DNA of 64,000 nucleotides, taken from Eubacterium maltosivorans. Its GTDB lineage: Bacteria > Bacillota > Clostridia > Eubacteriales > Eubacteriaceae. The notes beneath the pieces are model-generated. The model searched no databases. It had not been told where the DNA came from and was given only the letters and a program-made list of their open reading frames with translations. Within the stretch, counting starts at the first letter, position 1. Each line of letters opens with the position of its first letter. Below, one piece after another: positions 28,052 to 35,789 of this stretch. The DNA lies in assembly GCF_002441855.2 (NCBI RefSeq), contig NZ_CP029487.1, positions 496,001 through 560,000 of the forward strand, read 5' to 3'. Both the position numbers and the translations under genes were made by a program.

Positions 28052-28083
28052 AAAAAACTCCTGCAGCTTCGCAGGAGTTTTTT
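28052..28083. terminator. bidirectional terminator at the end of the first kinase gene
   Basis: AAAAAACTCCTGC pairs with GCAGGAGTTTTTT. It overlaps the kinase stop codon and also ends anything transcribed rightward from 27250. Confidence 0.8.
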
Positions 28084-29425
28084 ATTTCCTTTCCGGCATC
28101 AGTAAAACAGAGGCTTTGAAAATGTGGTCAGCGTAATCGAAATGGGCAAAGCCCTGGTGCTTTTCAGCGATATGGCGGACAGAAGCGAGGCCGATACCCT
28201 CACCGGCGCGTTTGGTGGAGTAAAACCTGTCCTTTACCTGTCGAATTTCATTTTCATAACTGTTTTTCACGTTAACGGCCACCATCCGCTGTCCGGCAAT
28301 ACCGACACTTACATGAATAAAGCGGCGCAGCCTCGTCTGAAGCAGGCAGGCATCCAGTGCATTCTCCAAAAGATTTCCAAGCACCACGCATGCGTCCATC
28401 TCGGTTATGGGCAGCTCCTTTGGCAGATTGACCGTAACATTCATCTCGATACCAGCCTTGCGCGCCAGCAGATAGTAATGGCGGAGGATGGTATCGACAG
28501 CGTAGTTTTCGCAAAAGGAAGGCGCCTCATCGGTATCCAGTATTTTCAGGTAGTGGTTAATATACCGCAGAAGGCCGGCGGTATCTCTCTGGTCGGCATA
28601 GCCCTTGAGGGCCAGCAGGTTATGCCTGAGGTCATGCCTTGCGGCCCTTGTGTCCTCGATATTTTTCTGAAGCTGCTCATACTGCTCCTTCTGGAGCTCG
28701 ATCTGAAGATCCATGACGCTCAGCTTTGACTGCAGCCTTGAGTTGGCGAAGCTTTCCAGCAGGGTGCGCATGACGATATAGTAGGTCAGGATAGTCCCGA
28801 TAATCCACGCCACAGGCAGCAGGAAAAAACTGTTGTGCCAGACCAGGCTGCTGTCGCAAAAGGTGGGGTACAGCCCAATCCGGAAAATAAAGTAAAAGGA
28901 TATGGGGATAATCCAAAGGTAGCGCCATGCGGGCATATCGCTGGTCTGTTCGATAACAGGCTTAATAGTTTTCTGCATAAACCAGAACAGGAAAGGAAAA
29001 GCAGCCAGCTCCAGTAATACAAGGGTGATTGTAAAATCAAGCGGATAATTAAAAAGGCCAAACCGATTGTTCCAGACAATATTAAAAATTTTTGCCAGAA
29101 GCTGAATATAGTCGTTGTAGTTTGTCAGAAAGCACAAAACAAAGAGATTTGTAAAATAATTATCCCTTATACAGAAAAGAGCAGCCGTAACGACAAAAAG
29201 AAAGAATACAAAGCTCAGGACGCCGCGAACACTGTAGAAGACGCTGTCTGGCGTGAGATAAATGTCTGTGATAAACACGCTGAAGGCGAGGATAGACACA
29301 ATGACGACAAACCAAACCCACTTAGGAACCTTTAAATGCTCAATAAAAACAGCAAAAAAACAAAAAAAACAGGGGATAAGCTGGGCAAGACAGATGACAA
29401 CAGCGATTCGGGCGTCCAAAATCAA
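28082..29425 (-). CDS. GHKL-family sensor histidine kinase
   Basis: 447 residues. About six to seven membrane segments fill residues 5-225, with short loops. A coiled coil (about 228-260) leads to the phosphoacceptor motif RHDLRHN (His264, Asp265) and a GHKL ATPase domain (VVLGNLLENALDAC, VNVKNSYENE, GEGIGLASVRHIAEKHQG). This is the AgrC/HPK10-like class that pairs with LytTR regulators and often senses peptides or membrane state. It overlaps the regulator gene by 4 nt, so the two are co-translated. A paralogue lies at 33048-34424. Confidence 0.88.
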   Translation of the reverse strand: MILDARIAVVICLAQLIPCFFCFFAVFIEHLKVPKWVWFVVIVSILAFSVFITDIYLTPDSVFYSVRGVLSFVFFLFVVTAALFCIRDNYFTNLFVLCFLTNYNDYIQLLAKIFNIVWNNRFGLFNYPLDFTITLVLLELAAFPFLFWFMQKTIKPVIEQTSDMPAWRYLWIIPISFYFIFRIGLYPTFCDSSLVWHNSFFLLPVAWIIGTILTYYIVMRTLLESFANSRLQSKLSVMDLQIELQKEQYEQLQKNIEDTRAARHDLRHNLLALKGYADQRDTAGLLRYINHYLKILDTDEAPSFCENYAVDTILRHYYLLARKAGIEMNVTVNLPKELPITEMDACVVLGNLLENALDACLLQTRLRRFIHVSVGIAGQRMVAVNVKNSYENEIRQVKDRFYSTKRAGEGIGLASVRHIAEKHQGFAHFDYADHIFKASVLLMPERK

Positions 29426-30144
29426 AGCCTCCTGTTTAATTTGTCAAATTCATAGTTAGCGTAGCGCTGCCGGATTTCTGCGCGAAGCCCGCGGTTAATG
29501 GGTACCCGTTCGCCTGAGAGCATGACAAAATCCTTTTCGTCAAGTATATCTACCTCATCCATATTCACGATACAGTTCCGGTAGCAGTTGACAAACTGAG
29601 GATAGGGCAGCAGCAGCGCGGAAAAATCAGAAAAAGGCATGTAGCATTTGACCGTGCGTCGTTTAGTATGGATGTAAATGTAATGGTTGGAGTAATCCGT
29701 ATAAACGATATCCTTTAAAAAGATTTTTACATAAGTCCGCCCTTCCTTCACCTCAATATACCGGCTTTTCTTGAACAGCGTTTCATCACAATAGCGCATG
29801 GTTTCCTCAAAAACCTCATAGCTGTAAGGCTTAACCAGATAGTCGAAAGCCCGGACTCTGAATCCCTTTACCGCATGAAACTGGCTGGTGGTCGAAAAAA
29901 TGAGCAGGCAATCGCTGTCTTTCTCACGGATTTTCTCTGCCGTTTCAATACCATTCAAACCATCCATATAAATATCCAAAAAAATAAGATCATAGGTCTG
30001 CGGGGTAAAGCACTCAAGAAAACGGCTGCCGCTTTCAAAGAGCGTGATCTCCGCATCAAGCTGGTGATCGGCGCTGTAACGGTGGATGTATTCGGAGAGC
30101 AGCTCACATTCTGTTCTTAGATCGTCGATAATCGCGATTTTCAT
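29422..30144 (-). CDS. LytTR-family response regulator
   Basis: 240 residues. The receiver domain has MKIAIIDDLRTECELLSEYI, acceptor Asp in LIFLDIYMDGLNGIETAEKI (about residue 56), and KPYSYEVFEETM. The C-terminal LytTR DNA-binding domain has EVKEGRTYVKIFLKDIVYTDYSNHYIYIHT, FVNCYRNCIVNMDEVDILDEKDFVMLSGERVPINRGLR. LytTR proteins bind paired direct repeats about two helical turns apart; such a pair lies in its own promoter region (30230-30252). It diverges from the channel operon across a 440-nt gap. Confidence 0.9.
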   Translation of the reverse strand: MKIAIIDDLRTECELLSEYIHRYSADHQLDAEITLFESGSRFLECFTPQTYDLIFLDIYMDGLNGIETAEKIREKDSDCLLIFSTTSQFHAVKGFRVRAFDYLVKPYSYEVFEETMRYCDETLFKKSRYIEVKEGRTYVKIFLKDIVYTDYSNHYIYIHTKRRTVKCYMPFSDFSALLLPYPQFVNCYRNCIVNMDEVDILDEKDFVMLSGERVPINRGLRAEIRQRYANYEFDKLNRRL

Positions 30145-30188
30145 AAAGACATCCCCCTTTCATAATTATTGCAATCAAATTTTATCAT

Positions 30189-30252
30189 ATTATGTTAAAA
30201 AAGACTGGAAATTCGGAACACAAAATTGGTAAAAAAAAGACGTTTTCGGTAA
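30189..30252 (-). promoter_or_regulatory. tandem TTACC operator and promoter of the regulator-kinase operon
   Basis: Read on the minus strand: TTACCGAAAA (30252-30243), then TTACCAATTT 20 bp later, then CATAAT (30194-30189) about 36 bp after the second repeat. This is the same geometry as at 27182-27246, suggesting autoregulation. Confidence 0.45.
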
Positions 30253-30467
30253 GAATGTTGATTCTGATTTTTTTGACAGGTATGATTATAGTGTACCTTA
30301 ACAGGATCTTAAGAAAATGACAAGCAGACGCTTATCATCCATTAAGATAGCAGTGCGGCGCTTTGTTTTTGTATTACACCAATATGTTTTCACAGTGTGA
30401 ACACATATCCTCTCATCCAATCGTAATGCAGTAAACCCTGCCCGCGCTGCATGAAGTTTAAAACAGC

Positions 30468-30525
30468 GAGACAATGGTGTTCCGTTTCCGCGATGCGGCA
30501 GAGTGGAAAGATTGTCTCCCTTTTT
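30468..30525 (+). other. leader hairpin before the channel operon
   Basis: GAGACAAT (30468-30475) pairs with ATTGTCTC (30511-30518), followed by CCTTTTT. The inner sequence can also fold (TTCC...GGAA). It may be a terminator or attenuator. A 16-bp motif, GATATACCCAAACAGG, follows at 30532-30547 and is repeated at 27151-27166. The rest of 30145-30584 holds no gene. Confidence 0.4.
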
Positions 30526-30584
30526 ATGTTTGATATACCCAAACAGGTATTCAAAATAGACTTTAAAAGACGAGAGGAGAGAAA

Positions 30585-31667
30585 ATGAAATTCGGCGAAT
30601 TAAAAAGCTGGCAGAAAAAACGTCTGCTGATGAGCTTTTTTACCTATGTCATCATCGCAGCTGTTTTTCTGGGATATGCGGTTGTTACCATGTACACAGA
30701 CAAAAAAGCAGAAGATGATTACTGGGTATCTATGATGCAGACGCCTGAGAAGGTAGAAGAGAGGGCCAGACAGTTTAACCAGAACGCCACAGAGGTAACG
30801 GTTGGCACCTATATCGAAAACCTGAAAGAGATCAACCTGAAAACATCCAACTACCGTGTGGTGGCGTTGATCTGGTTTAAATGGAACGGGGATGAAAATC
30901 TGGATATGGCCAAACATTTCCGCATTTATAAGGGAACCATGAATAAGATGGAAACCGTAAAAAATTACCATGAAAATGGCGTCAACTACCAGGCCGTCCG
31001 GTGCGATGTAACCGTCACAAAAAATTACTGGAACCGCCGGTTTCCGCTGGAGTCTCATCAATTGCGTATGTATGTGGAATCAGAACTGCCCGTGGATGAC
31101 GTTGTCTTTGTAAATGATGAAGACAGCGGGATCAATGAGTCTCTCGGGATTTCAGGCTATGACCTGAGAAGAAACGCAACAGGCACCACGATGATCGAGT
31201 ATAAAGATGACCATGGCGATCCTGAAATGACAGGCGGTATCATTAACGCAGAGCATATCACAGCGCTTGAGCTTAACAGAGACAGCATGGGCCTGTACGT
31301 CAAGTGCTTTATTGCCCTGGTCGGCACCACAACCTGGGTTTTGATCACGTTGTTTATCTGTACCTATCACCGGGTCGATCCCCTCAGTATGATCCCCGCC
31401 GCCCTTTTTGGCACAGTGACCAATATTATGGTCGGCGCGAACCTGCTGCCTGACGCCCTGCAGCTCGGACTTTTGGAATACGTCAATATTTTTGGTATTA
31501 TGACGATTATGGCTGTGGCGCTGTCCATTATCAATATCAACCGGATTCGAAACAAATACGAGGATCGTGATTTTGCAAGCTTTTACGGGCGTGTCATGTT
31601 CTATACGATTCTGTTCTTTGTGGTGGCCGGGAATATCATCCTGCCCATATCCGCGTATATGTTCTAG
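30585..31667 (+). CDS. pentameric ligand-gated ion channel-like membrane protein
   Basis: 360 residues. An N-terminal membrane anchor (14-36) is followed by an external beta-rich region (about 45-238) and four membrane segments (241-261, 264-287, 297-318, 334-358). The external region has the order expected of Cys-loop-family channels: TYIENLKEINLKTSNYRVVALIWFKW, then RRFPLESHQLRMYVES in place of the FPFD-x-Q-x-L loop. ANLLPDALQLGLLEYVNIF fits the M2-M3 linker. The GLIC/ELIC-type assignment is by pattern, not by search. It heads an operon with a K+ channel gene 18 nt downstream and has a strong GAGGAGAG site. Confidence 0.6.
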   Translation: MKFGELKSWQKKRLLMSFFTYVIIAAVFLGYAVVTMYTDKKAEDDYWVSMMQTPEKVEERARQFNQNATEVTVGTYIENLKEINLKTSNYRVVALIWFKWNGDENLDMAKHFRIYKGTMNKMETVKNYHENGVNYQAVRCDVTVTKNYWNRRFPLESHQLRMYVESELPVDDVVFVNDEDSGINESLGISGYDLRRNATGTTMIEYKDDHGDPEMTGGIINAEHITALELNRDSMGLYVKCFIALVGTTTWVLITLFICTYHRVDPLSMIPAALFGTVTNIMVGANLLPDALQLGLLEYVNIFGIMTIMAVALSIININRIRNKYEDRDFASFYGRVMFYTILFFVVAGNIILPISAYMF

Positions 31668-31685
31668 GGACCGAGGCGTTAAGCG

Positions 31686-32456
31686 ATGCGTGAACAGATA
31701 TACAAAATTGTTAAAAAAGCAGAGCCTGGAGATGTCATCAGCAAATACTATGACGTGTTTATCATGGTGGTGGCCTTTATCAGTATCTGCCCGCTGATGT
31801 TTAAGGAATCCAATTCGCTTTTGGTGATGATTGATACCATCACCGTCTATATTCTTTTTACCGATTATATTTTTAACTGGATTACCTATGATTACAAGCT
31901 TAAAAAGCATTCACCCTGGGTGTTTGTGGCCTATCCCTTCTCACCCTGGGCCTTGATCGACCTGGTTTCGATTTTGCCGTCTCTTGGGCTGCTGGGCGCT
32001 GGCTTTCGAATTCTGCGTGTGCTGCGTGTGTTTAAGGTGCTGTACTACTCAAAAACCTTCTCCTATGTGGCCAATGTTTTCAAAAACGAGCGCAAAACCC
32101 TGGGCTATGTGCTCATCATCGCGCTGGCCTATATCTTTGTATCAGCGCTGGCCATGTTTGCTTATGAGCCGGATACCTTTGATAATTTCTTTGAAGCGCT
32201 CTACTGGGCAACAACAGCCCTGACCACCGTTGGCTATGGGGATGTATACCCGGTCACAGAGGTAGGGCGTTTGATCAGCATGATTTCATCACTCTTTGGT
32301 ATCGCAGTGATCGCAATGCCTGCCGGTGTCGTGACCGCTGGGTTTATGGATGAAATCGGACGTGCGAAGGAACTGGAACGCCTTGAAAAGGCTAAAAAAG
32401 AAGGGAAGAACCTCGAGGAAGTCATTGAGGAGGAATTGGAGGAACAGAATGAGTAA
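31686..32456 (+). CDS. voltage-gated potassium channel (six-TM Kv type)
   Basis: 256 residues. S1-S3 are followed by an S4 helix with basic residues at every third position (Arg108, Arg111, Arg114, Lys117 in GFRILRVLRVFK). S5, the pore loop with selectivity filter TTVGYGD (180-186) and S6 (IAVIAMPAGVVTAGFMDEI) follow. The C-terminus is a short charged coiled coil. It should pass K+ on depolarisation. It is translated from the channel-like operon and overlaps the next gene by 8 nt, so the products are probably made together. Confidence 0.9.
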   Translation: MREQIYKIVKKAEPGDVISKYYDVFIMVVAFISICPLMFKESNSLLVMIDTITVYILFTDYIFNWITYDYKLKKHSPWVFVAYPFSPWALIDLVSILPSLGLLGAGFRILRVLRVFKVLYYSKTFSYVANVFKNERKTLGYVLIIALAYIFVSALAMFAYEPDTFDNFFEALYWATTALTTVGYGDVYPVTEVGRLISMISSLFGIAVIAMPAGVVTAGFMDEIGRAKELERLEKAKKEGKNLEEVIEEELEEQNE

Positions 32457-33030
32457 CAAAACGCGCTATTTAATCATCATGGTTTTGGGCGTTGTAATGA
32501 ACCGGCTGCTCTATGTTATCTCGATGCATTTTAATCTGCCCTTCTGGCTGGATATGTCCGGCACTGTTCTGGCCGCGCTGATACTGGAGCCGACAGCTGG
32601 GCTTCTGGTAGGGCTTGTGAATAATTTCGGGCTGGCAGTGTTCAACTACAGCAGCAGCTCGCTGATTTTCTACGCGGTCAGCGCTGCCGCCGCGCTGGTG
32701 GTGGGCGTGAATATGCGCTGTAACGGACAGATCGACTGGAAGCGAACAGTTCCAACCATGGGGCTGCTGATTTTAGTCACTGGCGTCCTGTCCGCATTGC
32801 TCAGCATCTGGCAGAGTGGCGGAGCGCTTACCCATCCCTGGGAGGTCTATTTTTACAACCTGGCCGTATCCGCCGGTGTCCCCTGGGTGCTGGCCTGCTT
32901 CATTGGCACCATGGTTATCAAGGTTTTCGATGTGATCGCCACAGCCGGTATCATCGCACTGCTTTACTTTGTTTTGCCAGACAGCCTGAAGTATCCGCCG
33001 GAAACGCTCATGGAAAAAGAAAAGATTTAG
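32449..33030 (+). CDS. small polytopic membrane protein, ECF S-component-like
   Basis: 193 residues from ATG 32449, with GGAGGA at 32437-32443; an apparent upstream extension is the previous gene in another frame. Five to six membrane segments. The N-terminal pattern (MNRLLYVISMHFNLPFWLDMSGTVLAALILEPTAGLLVGLVNNFG) resembles substrate-binding S components of ECF transporters, which bind vitamins or metals. No ATPase or T component is present here. It may be a receptor-type subunit acting with the two channels; that is inference. Confidence 0.65.
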   Translation: MSNKTRYLIIMVLGVVMNRLLYVISMHFNLPFWLDMSGTVLAALILEPTAGLLVGLVNNFGLAVFNYSSSSLIFYAVSAAAALVVGVNMRCNGQIDWKRTVPTMGLLILVTGVLSALLSIWQSGGALTHPWEVYFYNLAVSAGVPWVLACFIGTMVIKVFDVIATAGIIALLYFVLPDSLKYPPETLMEKEKI

Positions 33031-33032
33031 AT

Positions 33033-33066
33033 AAAAAAGAACGTCCTTTACGGGACGTTCTTTTTT
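33033..33066. terminator. bidirectional terminator
   Basis: AAAAAAGAACGTCC pairs with GGACGTTCTTTTTT between the channel operon and the convergent second kinase gene, whose last codons it overlaps. Confidence 0.85.
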
Positions 33067-34424
33067 GATGTGCTGTTTTTGCGTGATAGCGCGTCAGGGT
33101 TCAGCAGAACAGAGGCTTCAAAAACCTGATGGTCATCATTAAATTTTGCAAAGCCGCTGTATTTTTCAGTTATCCGGCAGACCGAATGGATACCGATTCC
33201 TTCCGCATCGCGCTTGGAGGACATAAAGCCACCATCATCCTTTTTACAGATTGCATGATCATAGCTGTTTTTGACGGAAATCACCACGGAGTCCTTGCCC
33301 GAAACGCCGAGCTTTACAGAAATAAAGCGGTTTGCCTTTTTCTGACGCTGGCAGGCCTCCACCGCGTTTTCAAACAAATTGCCAAAAACCACGCAGAGAT
33401 CGCCCTCAGAAAAAAACAGCGGCTCGGGAAGCTCGATGTCAATGTGCAGGTCAATGGCATTTTGGCGTGCAAGAGCTGCGTAATGCTGGGCGATGGCGTC
33501 GATGGCAGTGTTGGCGCAGAGAGGCAGAGCCCTGTTCATATCCGCAGACTTCAGGCAGTCGCTCAAGCAGGCGTCGATTTGTTCAAAGGCGCTGTTTTCC
33601 GCATATCCTTTGAGCATGAGCAGGCGGTGCTTCAGGTTATGACGGGCTTTTTCAGTATCCTCAATATTATTTTTCAGGCGGTTGTACTGTTCATGCTGCA
33701 TACTGGCCTGATAATCAGATAGCTCCAGTTTATTTTGAAGCTCGGCAGCCCGCTGGTTTTCCTGAATCAGTCTTAAAATAACATAATAGGTCAAAAAGGT
33801 GCCGGCAAACCAGACGAAAGGTAAAACATGGGCCGGTACAGAGGAAAGATTTAAAGAGCCAGGATAGATGCAGAACCGGTACAGCAGGAAAAAACAAACG
33901 GGCACAACCCATAAATACCGCCAGTATGGCATGCTGCCTGTCTCAAAGACAGTTGGTTTAATGACCTTAATGGTAAAAAATCCGACAAAGGGCAGTGTGA
34001 GCGTGAAAATTAAAAACAGGATAAAGGCAGACAGCAGCGGGTTGGCAAGCAGAGAAGGCCCACAGAATATCTGGCTGAAAAACACAACGATATCCAGATA
34101 ATTTTTAATAATAAAGACCACAAAAAAGTTAAGGAAAAAATTTTCTTTAACGCTTAAAAGAAAAATCAAACCAATGGTAATATTAAACAAAACACTGACA
34201 GTGATCCGCGCATTGCCGGAATCAGGCATGGCGCTGAGCGTGAAAACAGCGGCATAGGTGACCGTACTTGAAATCAGGAGTACAGCAACCATCATAATAT
34301 TAATGCTGGTGCCAAATCGGAAATTGCCTTTAAAAACCGACTGGTATAGAAAGAGCGCCGGCAGAAGTTGAATAAGTGAAAGCAGCGCAGCAAAAGCGAA
34401 TTGATCCAAAACCAACCTCCACAA
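33048..34424 (-). CDS. second GHKL-family sensor kinase, paralogue with altered H-box
   Basis: 458 residues, with the same layout as the kinase at 28082-29425. Six to seven membrane segments reach residue 220, and the shared central stretch is MPYWRYLWVVPVCFFLLYRF. The H-box reads RHNLKHR (His262, Asn263) where the other kinase has RHDLRHN. ATP-binding motifs are kept (VVFGNLFENAVEAC, SVKNSYDHA, AEGIGIHSVCRITEKYSG). No regulator gene is adjacent. It may signal through the LytTR regulator at 29422 or modulate the other kinase. Confidence 0.85.
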   Translation of the reverse strand: MWRLVLDQFAFAALLSLIQLLPALFLYQSVFKGNFRFGTSINIMMVAVLLISSTVTYAAVFTLSAMPDSGNARITVSVLFNITIGLIFLLSVKENFFLNFFVVFIIKNYLDIVVFFSQIFCGPSLLANPLLSAFILFLIFTLTLPFVGFFTIKVIKPTVFETGSMPYWRYLWVVPVCFFLLYRFCIYPGSLNLSSVPAHVLPFVWFAGTFLTYYVILRLIQENQRAAELQNKLELSDYQASMQHEQYNRLKNNIEDTEKARHNLKHRLLMLKGYAENSAFEQIDACLSDCLKSADMNRALPLCANTAIDAIAQHYAALARQNAIDLHIDIELPEPLFFSEGDLCVVFGNLFENAVEACQRQKKANRFISVKLGVSGKDSVVISVKNSYDHAICKKDDGGFMSSKRDAEGIGIHSVCRITEKYSGFAKFNDDHQVFEASVLLNPDALSRKNSTSKKNVP

Positions 34425-34574
34425 TTTGCATGAGTTTTCCTCATTTTACCATAGAACAGAAGAATTTGCATAGGGAAGCGCCCAACGTGAGAGTATAAAA
34501 ATAAAAAATAATGCGGATTTATCTTTTAGTATAAAATAACCCATATGGAATGTATGTAAGCGGAAAAATAAAAA

Positions 34575-34596
34575 TCGTAGAATACCATATTCTACG
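34575..34596. repeat. left inverted repeat / dyad flanking the tyrosine recombinase
   Basis: TCGTAGAATACCATAT (34575-34590) is the exact reverse complement of 35718-35733. It is also part of a 9-3-9 palindrome (CGTAGAATA-CCA-TATTCTACG), which looks like a recombinase core site or an operator. Confidence 0.65.
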
Positions 34597-34689
34597 TCAT
34601 TTTTTTACTTTTTATAAATTCTATTATATCATTTATAAATTGCTATTACTAGCAAAATTCTAATTAATTTTTAGTAGGGAGGCATGATT

Positions 34690-35706
34690 ATGAAAAAAAC
34701 ATTTTCAATGTGGTCGCAGTCAATTCGTCGTTTTTTTTCAAAAAGGTCACTAACGCTGGGAGCGTTCAGCCGTGAGTGGATAAGGGAACGCAGCGATGAA
34801 GGAAAGATTAAGGTTTCCACACTTAGCAATTATCAGCGTATTATTGAACGCTATTTGTTGCCTGAATTAGGTGATCTCCGGCTGGATGCTGTAACCGGTG
34901 AAGTGGTACAGAATTTTGTGAAATCACTGGAAAAGAAAGCGCTTAAGACATCCACGATTCAAGGCATTATCGGCAGGCTATCGTCAATTATGGAAAGAGC
35001 CGTGGAAACCGGATTGATTGATAAAAATCCCTGCGGGCATATCGTCATCCAGAAAAAGCGGCAGACAACGACAGGAAAAATTCTGACCATTGAGGACCAA
35101 AAGACTCTGGCGCACTGGCTTTCAGCCCATGAGCACAACCTGAGCCTTGCTATACAGCTCGGACTCTTTGCGGGAATGCGCATCGGGGAGATCGCAGCGC
35201 TGCAATGGAAAGACATTGACCTGAAAAATGGGTTCATTCATGTTCGCAGAAATGTTCAGCGTGTAAAAAATCCTGAAATGGGCCAGCGCAAAACCATTAA
35301 CCAGATTGGCACGCCAAAATCGCAAAAAGCCTTTCGCTCTATTCCCATTACCTCTATTTTAATGAAATCACTCCAGTGCTATGAAAAAAACGGGTTAAAG
35401 CAGGAAGCTTTTGTGATTGCAAAAAAAGGTGGCTCAGCCTATGATGTGAGAACCATACAGCGCTATTTTAAAAAGACTATTTTCACCCTTAAATTAGATA
35501 ATTACCGTTTTCACGACCTTCGGCACACCTTTGCGACCAGGGCGAAGGAAAGCGGAATGGACATTCAGATCATCAGTGAAATTCTTGGGCATTCAGAGAC
35601 ATCTGTCACCATGAACATTTATCTGCACATCACAGACCATCATAAAAAACAGGAGATGGTGCTTCTGGATAAGCTAAACTCAACAATATATGGAAAAGCG
35701 GCATAA
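34690..35706 (+). CDS. tyrosine recombinase / phage-type integrase
   Basis: 338 residues. GGGAGG at 34676-34681 fits ATG 34690 better than the ATG at 34684. It has a core-binding SAM-like domain (FSREWIRERSDEGKIKVSTLSNYQRIIERYLLPELGDL), then the catalytic domain with Arg in GLFAGMRIGEIAALQW, Lys in the PKSQKAFRSIPI hairpin, HDLRHTFATR, GHSETSVTM and Tyr in NIYLHIT. All catalytic residues are visible. No excisionase or cargo accompanies it. The gene alone sits between perfect 16-bp inverted repeats, so the unit may be an invertible or minimal mobile segment. Confidence 0.88.
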   Translation: MKKTFSMWSQSIRRFFSKRSLTLGAFSREWIRERSDEGKIKVSTLSNYQRIIERYLLPELGDLRLDAVTGEVVQNFVKSLEKKALKTSTIQGIIGRLSSIMERAVETGLIDKNPCGHIVIQKKRQTTTGKILTIEDQKTLAHWLSAHEHNLSLAIQLGLFAGMRIGEIAALQWKDIDLKNGFIHVRRNVQRVKNPEMGQRKTINQIGTPKSQKAFRSIPITSILMKSLQCYEKNGLKQEAFVIAKKGGSAYDVRTIQRYFKKTIFTLKLDNYRFHDLRHTFATRAKESGMDIQIISEILGHSETSVTMNIYLHITDHHKKQEMVLLDKLNSTIYGKAA

Positions 35707-35717
35707 ATTGTCGTGAA

Positions 35718-35733
35718 ATATGGTATTCTACGA
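35718..35733. repeat. right inverted repeat flanking the tyrosine recombinase
   Basis: ATATGGTATTCTACGA, the exact inverse of 34575-34590. With preceding bases it forms an imperfect dyad (CGTGAAATA-TGG-TATTCTACG). Confidence 0.65.
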
Positions 35734-35789
35734 ACTTTCTTTAAAAAATATACCCTGTATTTTAAGGAATCACAATAAAGGTAGAGAGC

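Follow-up and report, generated by a model that had tools for sequence, protein, structure and literature searches.

The window, a 64,000-nucleotide stretch of the Eubacterium maltosivorans genome (4.34 Mb, single contig; the genus is shared with Eubacterium callanderi, locus L011), carries three closely packed genes on the forward strand. These encode a divergent pLGIC subunit of 360 residues (30585-31667, +), a Kv-type six-helix potassium channel of 256 residues (31686-32456, +), and an S-component-fold membrane protein of 193 residues (32449-33030, +). The first two genes are separated by 18 nt and the last two overlap by 8 nt, an operon-like spacing that bears out the tight three-gene operon of the original prediction. 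It was noted that the listed open reading frame of the third gene begins at 32350, and that homologue starts correspond to 32449. Upstream, a divergent LytTR response regulator (29422-30144, -; Pfam Response_reg and LytTR) lies next to its partner GHKL sensor kinase (28082-29425, -), while a second, convergent GHKL kinase (33048-34424, -) follows the operon; both kinases match Pfam HATPase_c_5 and they share about 37% identity. All six reading frames were found where they had been predicted, although the predicted interval of 29422-34424 begins at the LytTR gene and thereby omits the first of the two GHKL genes. Between regulator and operon lies a divergent promoter and leader region (30145-30584, +), a structured RNA candidate.

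The 360-residue protein had been read as a Cys-loop-type channel, and we found that it is a pLGIC subunit, built from an N-terminal membrane helix, a beta-sandwich extracellular domain and four membrane helices. Its AlphaFold (AF2) monomer model (mean pLDDT 76.8, lowest in the M2-M3 region) was matched by Foldseek to pLGICs in 50 of the 50 matches listed (best E 7e-15). Every match listed in the VIA comparison with pLGICs had a Z value of 19-20, with 271-283 residues aligned; one of them gave Z 19.9 and rmsd 4.5 A over 279 residues. A family profile retrieved six PDB matches, all of them pLGICs, with GLIC at the top (E 1.6e-4, or 6e-5 when the profile was built from a second alignment). This alignment-based profile was required, as the single-sequence PDB search returned no match; likewise, no family in Pfam, NCBIfam or PHROGs scored above cut-off. 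The missing family match reflects divergence and not absent homology. An Azospirillum megaplasmid protein bridges the distance, being 24% identical to the window protein (E 6e-13), passing the cut-off of Pfam Neur_chan_LBD (29.2 bits; cut-off 26), and matching DeCLIC (2e-10) and ELIC (5e-7) in the PDB. Such sequence intermediates connect the family with GLIC, ELIC and DeCLIC.

The Pro-loop proline that follows Phe or Tyr is absolutely conserved in the pLGIC (Pro-loop) superfamily (PMC4795631, Table 1). Across 11 aligned homologues, the corresponding F153-P154 was invariant, as were the pre-M1 arginine R232, which aligns with GLIC R192, and the M2-M3 loop proline P289. The residue two positions after the Pro-loop proline was acidic in 8 of the 11 homologues, mostly Glu. 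We had considered D178 as the counterpart of the GLIC Pro-loop Asp and ruled it out, since the Pro-loop acid is E156 (table in PMC4795631). Conservation in the family is among the highest in M2 and the M2-M3 loop; in the alignment with GLIC, the face of M2 is very hydrophobic and contains a nearly invariant proline. The M1 kink proline is absent, its aligned position being an invariant Ala244 in the 11 homologues, and this proline is found in 77% of the superfamily, making it common and not defining. Of the five hydrophobic segments in the protein, the additional first one is retained in relatives and also lies inside a 1108-residue fusion (L035) after about 270 residues, so this helix is probably an uncleaved anchor. 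The protein thereby shares with GLIC, ELIC, sTeLIC and DeCLIC the fold, the four C-terminal membrane helices, the Pro-loop proline, the pre-M1 arginine and the M2-M3 proline. It differs from them in its uncleaved-looking N-terminal helix, the missing M1 kink proline, the usual replacement of the Pro-loop Asp by Glu, the lack of a Pfam match, and the operon that it shares with a K+ channel.

Relatives were also encountered in other contexts. The bridging protein is a stand-alone pLGIC of Azospirillum brasilense (L130 3929-4867, +; megaplasmid NZ_CP059450.1) with a cleavable-looking signal peptide, and seven Azospirillum plasmid records match it. The fusion (L035 8116-11442, -; genome G652) ends in a pLGIC domain; its N-terminal part comprises a coiled-coil and a weak helix-turn-helix, followed by a membrane helix and Big_2 Ig-like repeats. 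It is possibly a receptor in which a pore domain on the outside is connected with a DNA-binding-like domain in the cytoplasm. A solo relative in Listeria ilorinensis (L015 8001-9053), with no Kv-S pair, is located between an Mga-like regulator gene and genes for WxL/Ig-type surface proteins. No relatives were found in the viral contigs and phage records searched.

The second protein is a Kv channel, in agreement with the original prediction. It was matched to Pfam Ion_trans (E 1.6e-27) and, in the PDB, to KCNQ, Kv2.1, KvAP and Shaker; it possesses six helices and an intact TVGYGD selectivity filter, and the channel is conserved across 31 loci. The four basic residues claimed for its S4 helix were present in the window protein (R108, R111, R114, K117), although the first of them is Met in some homologues. 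Six-helix topology, TVGYGD filter and charged S4 are shared with bacterial Kv channels (KvAP, MVP-type), from which it differs by a short cytoplasmic tail and by its overlap with, or fusion to, an S-component-fold protein. Two variations were noted among the homologues of one genus (that of G975): in L076, L077 and L078, which have no pLGIC, the filter region reads LTAVGYGD in place of LTTVGYGD, and the last S4 Lys is replaced by Arg. The Kv gene of Eubacterium aggregans (L014 9061-9848) is split by a frameshift, a candidate sequencing error or decay.

The third protein has the S-component fold that had been suggested for it. Its AF2 model (pLDDT 89) retrieved ThiT and RibU as the top Foldseek matches (E about 0.007, TM-score up to 0.65/0.71), and the profile search matched FolT and RibU. 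The NCBIfam model ECF_S_CD3073 was matched at E 2.9e-12, which is below its cut-off; no Pfam family scored above cut-off and Pfam 5TMR gave no match. The AxxxA motif of helix 1 is required for EcfT docking and is missing in S-fold receptors (PMC11109136). At its expected position the window protein reads VLGVV. The strict motif was retained in only 2 of 31 trio-type S proteins, compared with 6 of 11 alignable stand-alone paralogues, and because of this difference the trio-type protein is probably a sensor, a receptor rather than a transporter. A LEPxAGL signature was found in trio-type S proteins and not in the transporter-type paralogues. No EcfT/A genes were seen beside the trio, though a shared module elsewhere in the genome is possible. 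Thus the protein shares fold and core helix motifs with the ECF S-components (ThiT, RibU, FolT and the ECF_S_CD3073 family) and departs from them in its lost AxxxA, its LEPxAGL signature, the lack of adjacent EcfT/A, and a Kv fusion in two genomes. A further parallel is offered by the 5TMR-LYT receptors (PMC11109136), which likewise have the S fold without AxxxA, employ it for sensing (as predicted here) and are fused to output modules; in the trio, the output is an ion channel. The combination seen in S-fold receptors, an S fold without AxxxA and with a linked output module, was found here in the AxxxA loss and the Kv-S fusions, and the words "channel" and "potassium" are absent from that survey (PMC11109136). 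More distant S relatives carry fused HD or two-component regulator propeller domains. The stand-alone paralogues lie near EcfT/A, nucleoside hydrolase, nucleoside phosphorylase or 2-thiouracil desulfurase-like genes, and these nucleoside and nucleobase neighbours are a lead to the ligand, nothing more.

Kv and S form the tightest pair of the trio and can be a single polypeptide. In each of the eight trios for which it was measured, the overlap of their genes was 4-11 nt. In L089 the two are fused into a protein of 437 residues, encoded after an intact pLGIC gene; the L090 fusion has 446 residues, and a pLGIC remnant precedes it. Because the linkers of the two fusions are unlike in both sequence and length, one sequencing error common to both is unlikely; the C-terminus of Kv and the N-terminus of S are both expected to be cytoplasmic. 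From these natural fusions, the S protein, to which the original prediction gave no role, appears to be tied most closely to the Kv channel. A further arrangement was noted in genome G992 (L074 6464-9211), where a pLGIC fragment is followed by a second S-like protein, Kv and S, such that two S-like proteins bracket one Kv.

We then assessed the distribution of the trio in an even sample of 291 genomes of the class. The pLGIC family was found in 7 genomes and a trio-type S gene beside Kv in 12, and all 7 pLGIC genomes were among these 12, with the genes adjacent (hypergeometric P 2.4e-11, which is only indicative because the genomes are related). Following hits beyond the even sample yielded 31 Kv-S loci in total, which do not represent a random sample. 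A full-length pLGIC gene lies immediately upstream of Kv-S in 21 of them, spanning five families and two classes; 2 carry pLGIC fragments, 1 a remnant, and 7 none. When family f206 was searched with the S protein alone, nine strong matches were obtained and all nine belonged to complete trios, whose flanking genes were unlike even inside one genus. Pairwise identities of the three proteins correlate across eight loci (r 0.87-0.93). The window pLGIC shares 62% identity with its counterpart in G929, from another family, versus 48-50% with own-family members outside the genus, and a copy with 55% identity occurs in Longicatena, a member of another class. This higher cross-family identity and the Longicatena copy point to the cassette as a whole having spread horizontally. 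The trio of pLGIC, Kv and S is a real conserved unit, found in some gut-type bacteria, and of the six genes whose co-occurrence had been proposed, these three are conserved together, with the kinases and LytTR beside them in the window genus only. In the open-access literature, searches for a pLGIC gene sharing an operon with a K+ channel, or for S-components connected with ion channels, returned no paper.

The pLGIC is dispensable. In one genus it has for the most part been lost and Kv-S kept, with no detectable pLGIC in seven genomes and only a remnant in one; in two genomes of another family, pLGIC fragments lie beside Kv-S. Within the genus of G975, the promoter region upstream of the pLGIC is retained in L079 (97% identity) and L080 (93%), where the pLGIC is gone and Kv-S is left. 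The retention of Kv-S in such genomes indicates that the pair works without the pLGIC. In the other direction, four pLGIC relatives have no adjacent Kv-S: those of Listeria ilorinensis, G009 and G011 (contig 140), and the G652 fusion.

The GHKL kinases and LytTR regulator had been regarded as integral parts of the unit. They were found beside the trio only in four species of the window genus and in none of the other trio flanks examined, so they are local neighbours; the channels occur elsewhere without the kinases, an outcome that the original prediction had itself named as refuting, and this part of the proposal fails. In the window genus, the LytTR/GHKL pair probably adds transcriptional control. 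The 440-nt region at 30145-30584 has 92% mean column identity across the four species and is not shared with other trio loci. It contains a candidate LytTR-type direct repeat (30224-30232 / 30245-30253) and a perfect dyad, TTCACAGTGTGAA, at 30389-30401, and it folds better than its shuffles (z -4.45). A search of Rfam with this leader returned no family, and a known riboswitch was rejected on that account; covariation (compensatory changes in 3 of 125 pairs, from four close species) was too thin to claim a structure. A tyrosine recombinase gene adjoins the cassette in all four species. In the window this gene (34684-35706) is flanked by 38-nt inverted repeats (82%; 34566-34603 / 35705-35742), an arrangement that would be expected of a self-inverting phase switch.

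Taken as a whole, there is about an even chance that the trio is a three-protein signalling cassette, a sensor-equipped Kv channel with a pLGIC input, whose electrical mechanism we infer as follows. The S protein would have abandoned ECF transport and would sit in the membrane as a subunit of the Kv tetramer that senses small molecules, and its ligand would make K+ conductance responsive. The pLGIC would supply a second, fast input, admitting cations when an extracellular ligand (or proton or calcium) is bound, and the Kv-S channel would oppose or shape the resulting change. In the window genus, the LytTR/GHKL pair would act on transcription from outside the conserved machine. Counted against this cassette are the Kv-S genomes that have no pLGIC, the pLGIC relatives that have no Kv-S, and the lack of the usual M1 kink proline. 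A more specific proposal, put forward tentatively, is an excitability module in which a Kv channel is chemically gated through a repurposed vitamin-transporter S-component and a pLGIC provides the opposing ligand-gated current, the whole having spread as a unit between gut Firmicutes. The original scheme, in which the pLGIC depolarises the membrane and the Kv channel resets it, is a possible candidate, weakened by the genomes that keep Kv-S after pLGIC loss.

Several other explanations were weighed. A role in ion homeostasis, with a proton- or calcium-gated pLGIC like GLIC or DeCLIC and a Kv-S pair tuning K+ efflux under acid, salt or membrane-potential stress instead of signalling, is somewhat unlikely: proton-gated GLIC is the nearest solved relative by profile, the Azospirillum intermediate is nearest to calcium-regulated DeCLIC, and the flanks of the trio contain no gene pointing to a signalling pathway, yet a small-molecule-binding S fold tied to Kv suggests a specific ligand and the patchy distribution better fits an accessory function. 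We consider it improbable that the pLGIC-like protein acts directly on Kv-S as an extracellular receptor or auxiliary subunit that conducts no ions itself. The hydrophobic, proline-containing M2 face and the missing M1 kink proline would fit this, and the uncleaved membrane helix could mediate contact; however, M2 and the M2-M3 loop are highly conserved, as expected for a pore, and pLGIC relatives exist without Kv-S.

The electrical and transcriptional unit of six genes, including both GHKL kinases and LytTR, is now very unlikely, as the examined flanks of the remaining trio loci refute it as a general rule despite the synteny in four species, the candidate direct repeat and the conserved divergent region. 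Lower still do we place an ordinary ECF subunit working on a shared EcfAAT, with its operon beside ion channels incidental; an ECF S component is the closest named family and S relatives adjoin EcfT/A, but the motif needed for docking is lost in 29 of 31 proteins, LEPxAGL sets them apart from the transporter-type paralogues, and the fusions join S to Kv. An anti-phage defence role was not supported: among the PADLOC families, no match was better than E 0.013 over about 30 residues.

These results confirm and extend the original prediction at the sequence level, from a single locus to a conserved pLGIC/Kv/S-fold cassette with natural Kv-S fusions. To our knowledge, it is not settled what bacterial pLGICs do for the cells that make them, and a conserved operon partner offers a direct way into this problem. 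K+ channels naturally fused to an S-component fold would bring ion channels within the view of the S fold as a sensor module of general use. Should both channels conduct, the trio would amount to an excitable system of anaerobic gut bacteria reduced to three genes, one that can be rebuilt and recorded from. By pairing a relative of nerve-receptor channels with a voltage-gated K+ channel and a membrane sensor, it may represent a compact bacterial unit of electrical signalling.
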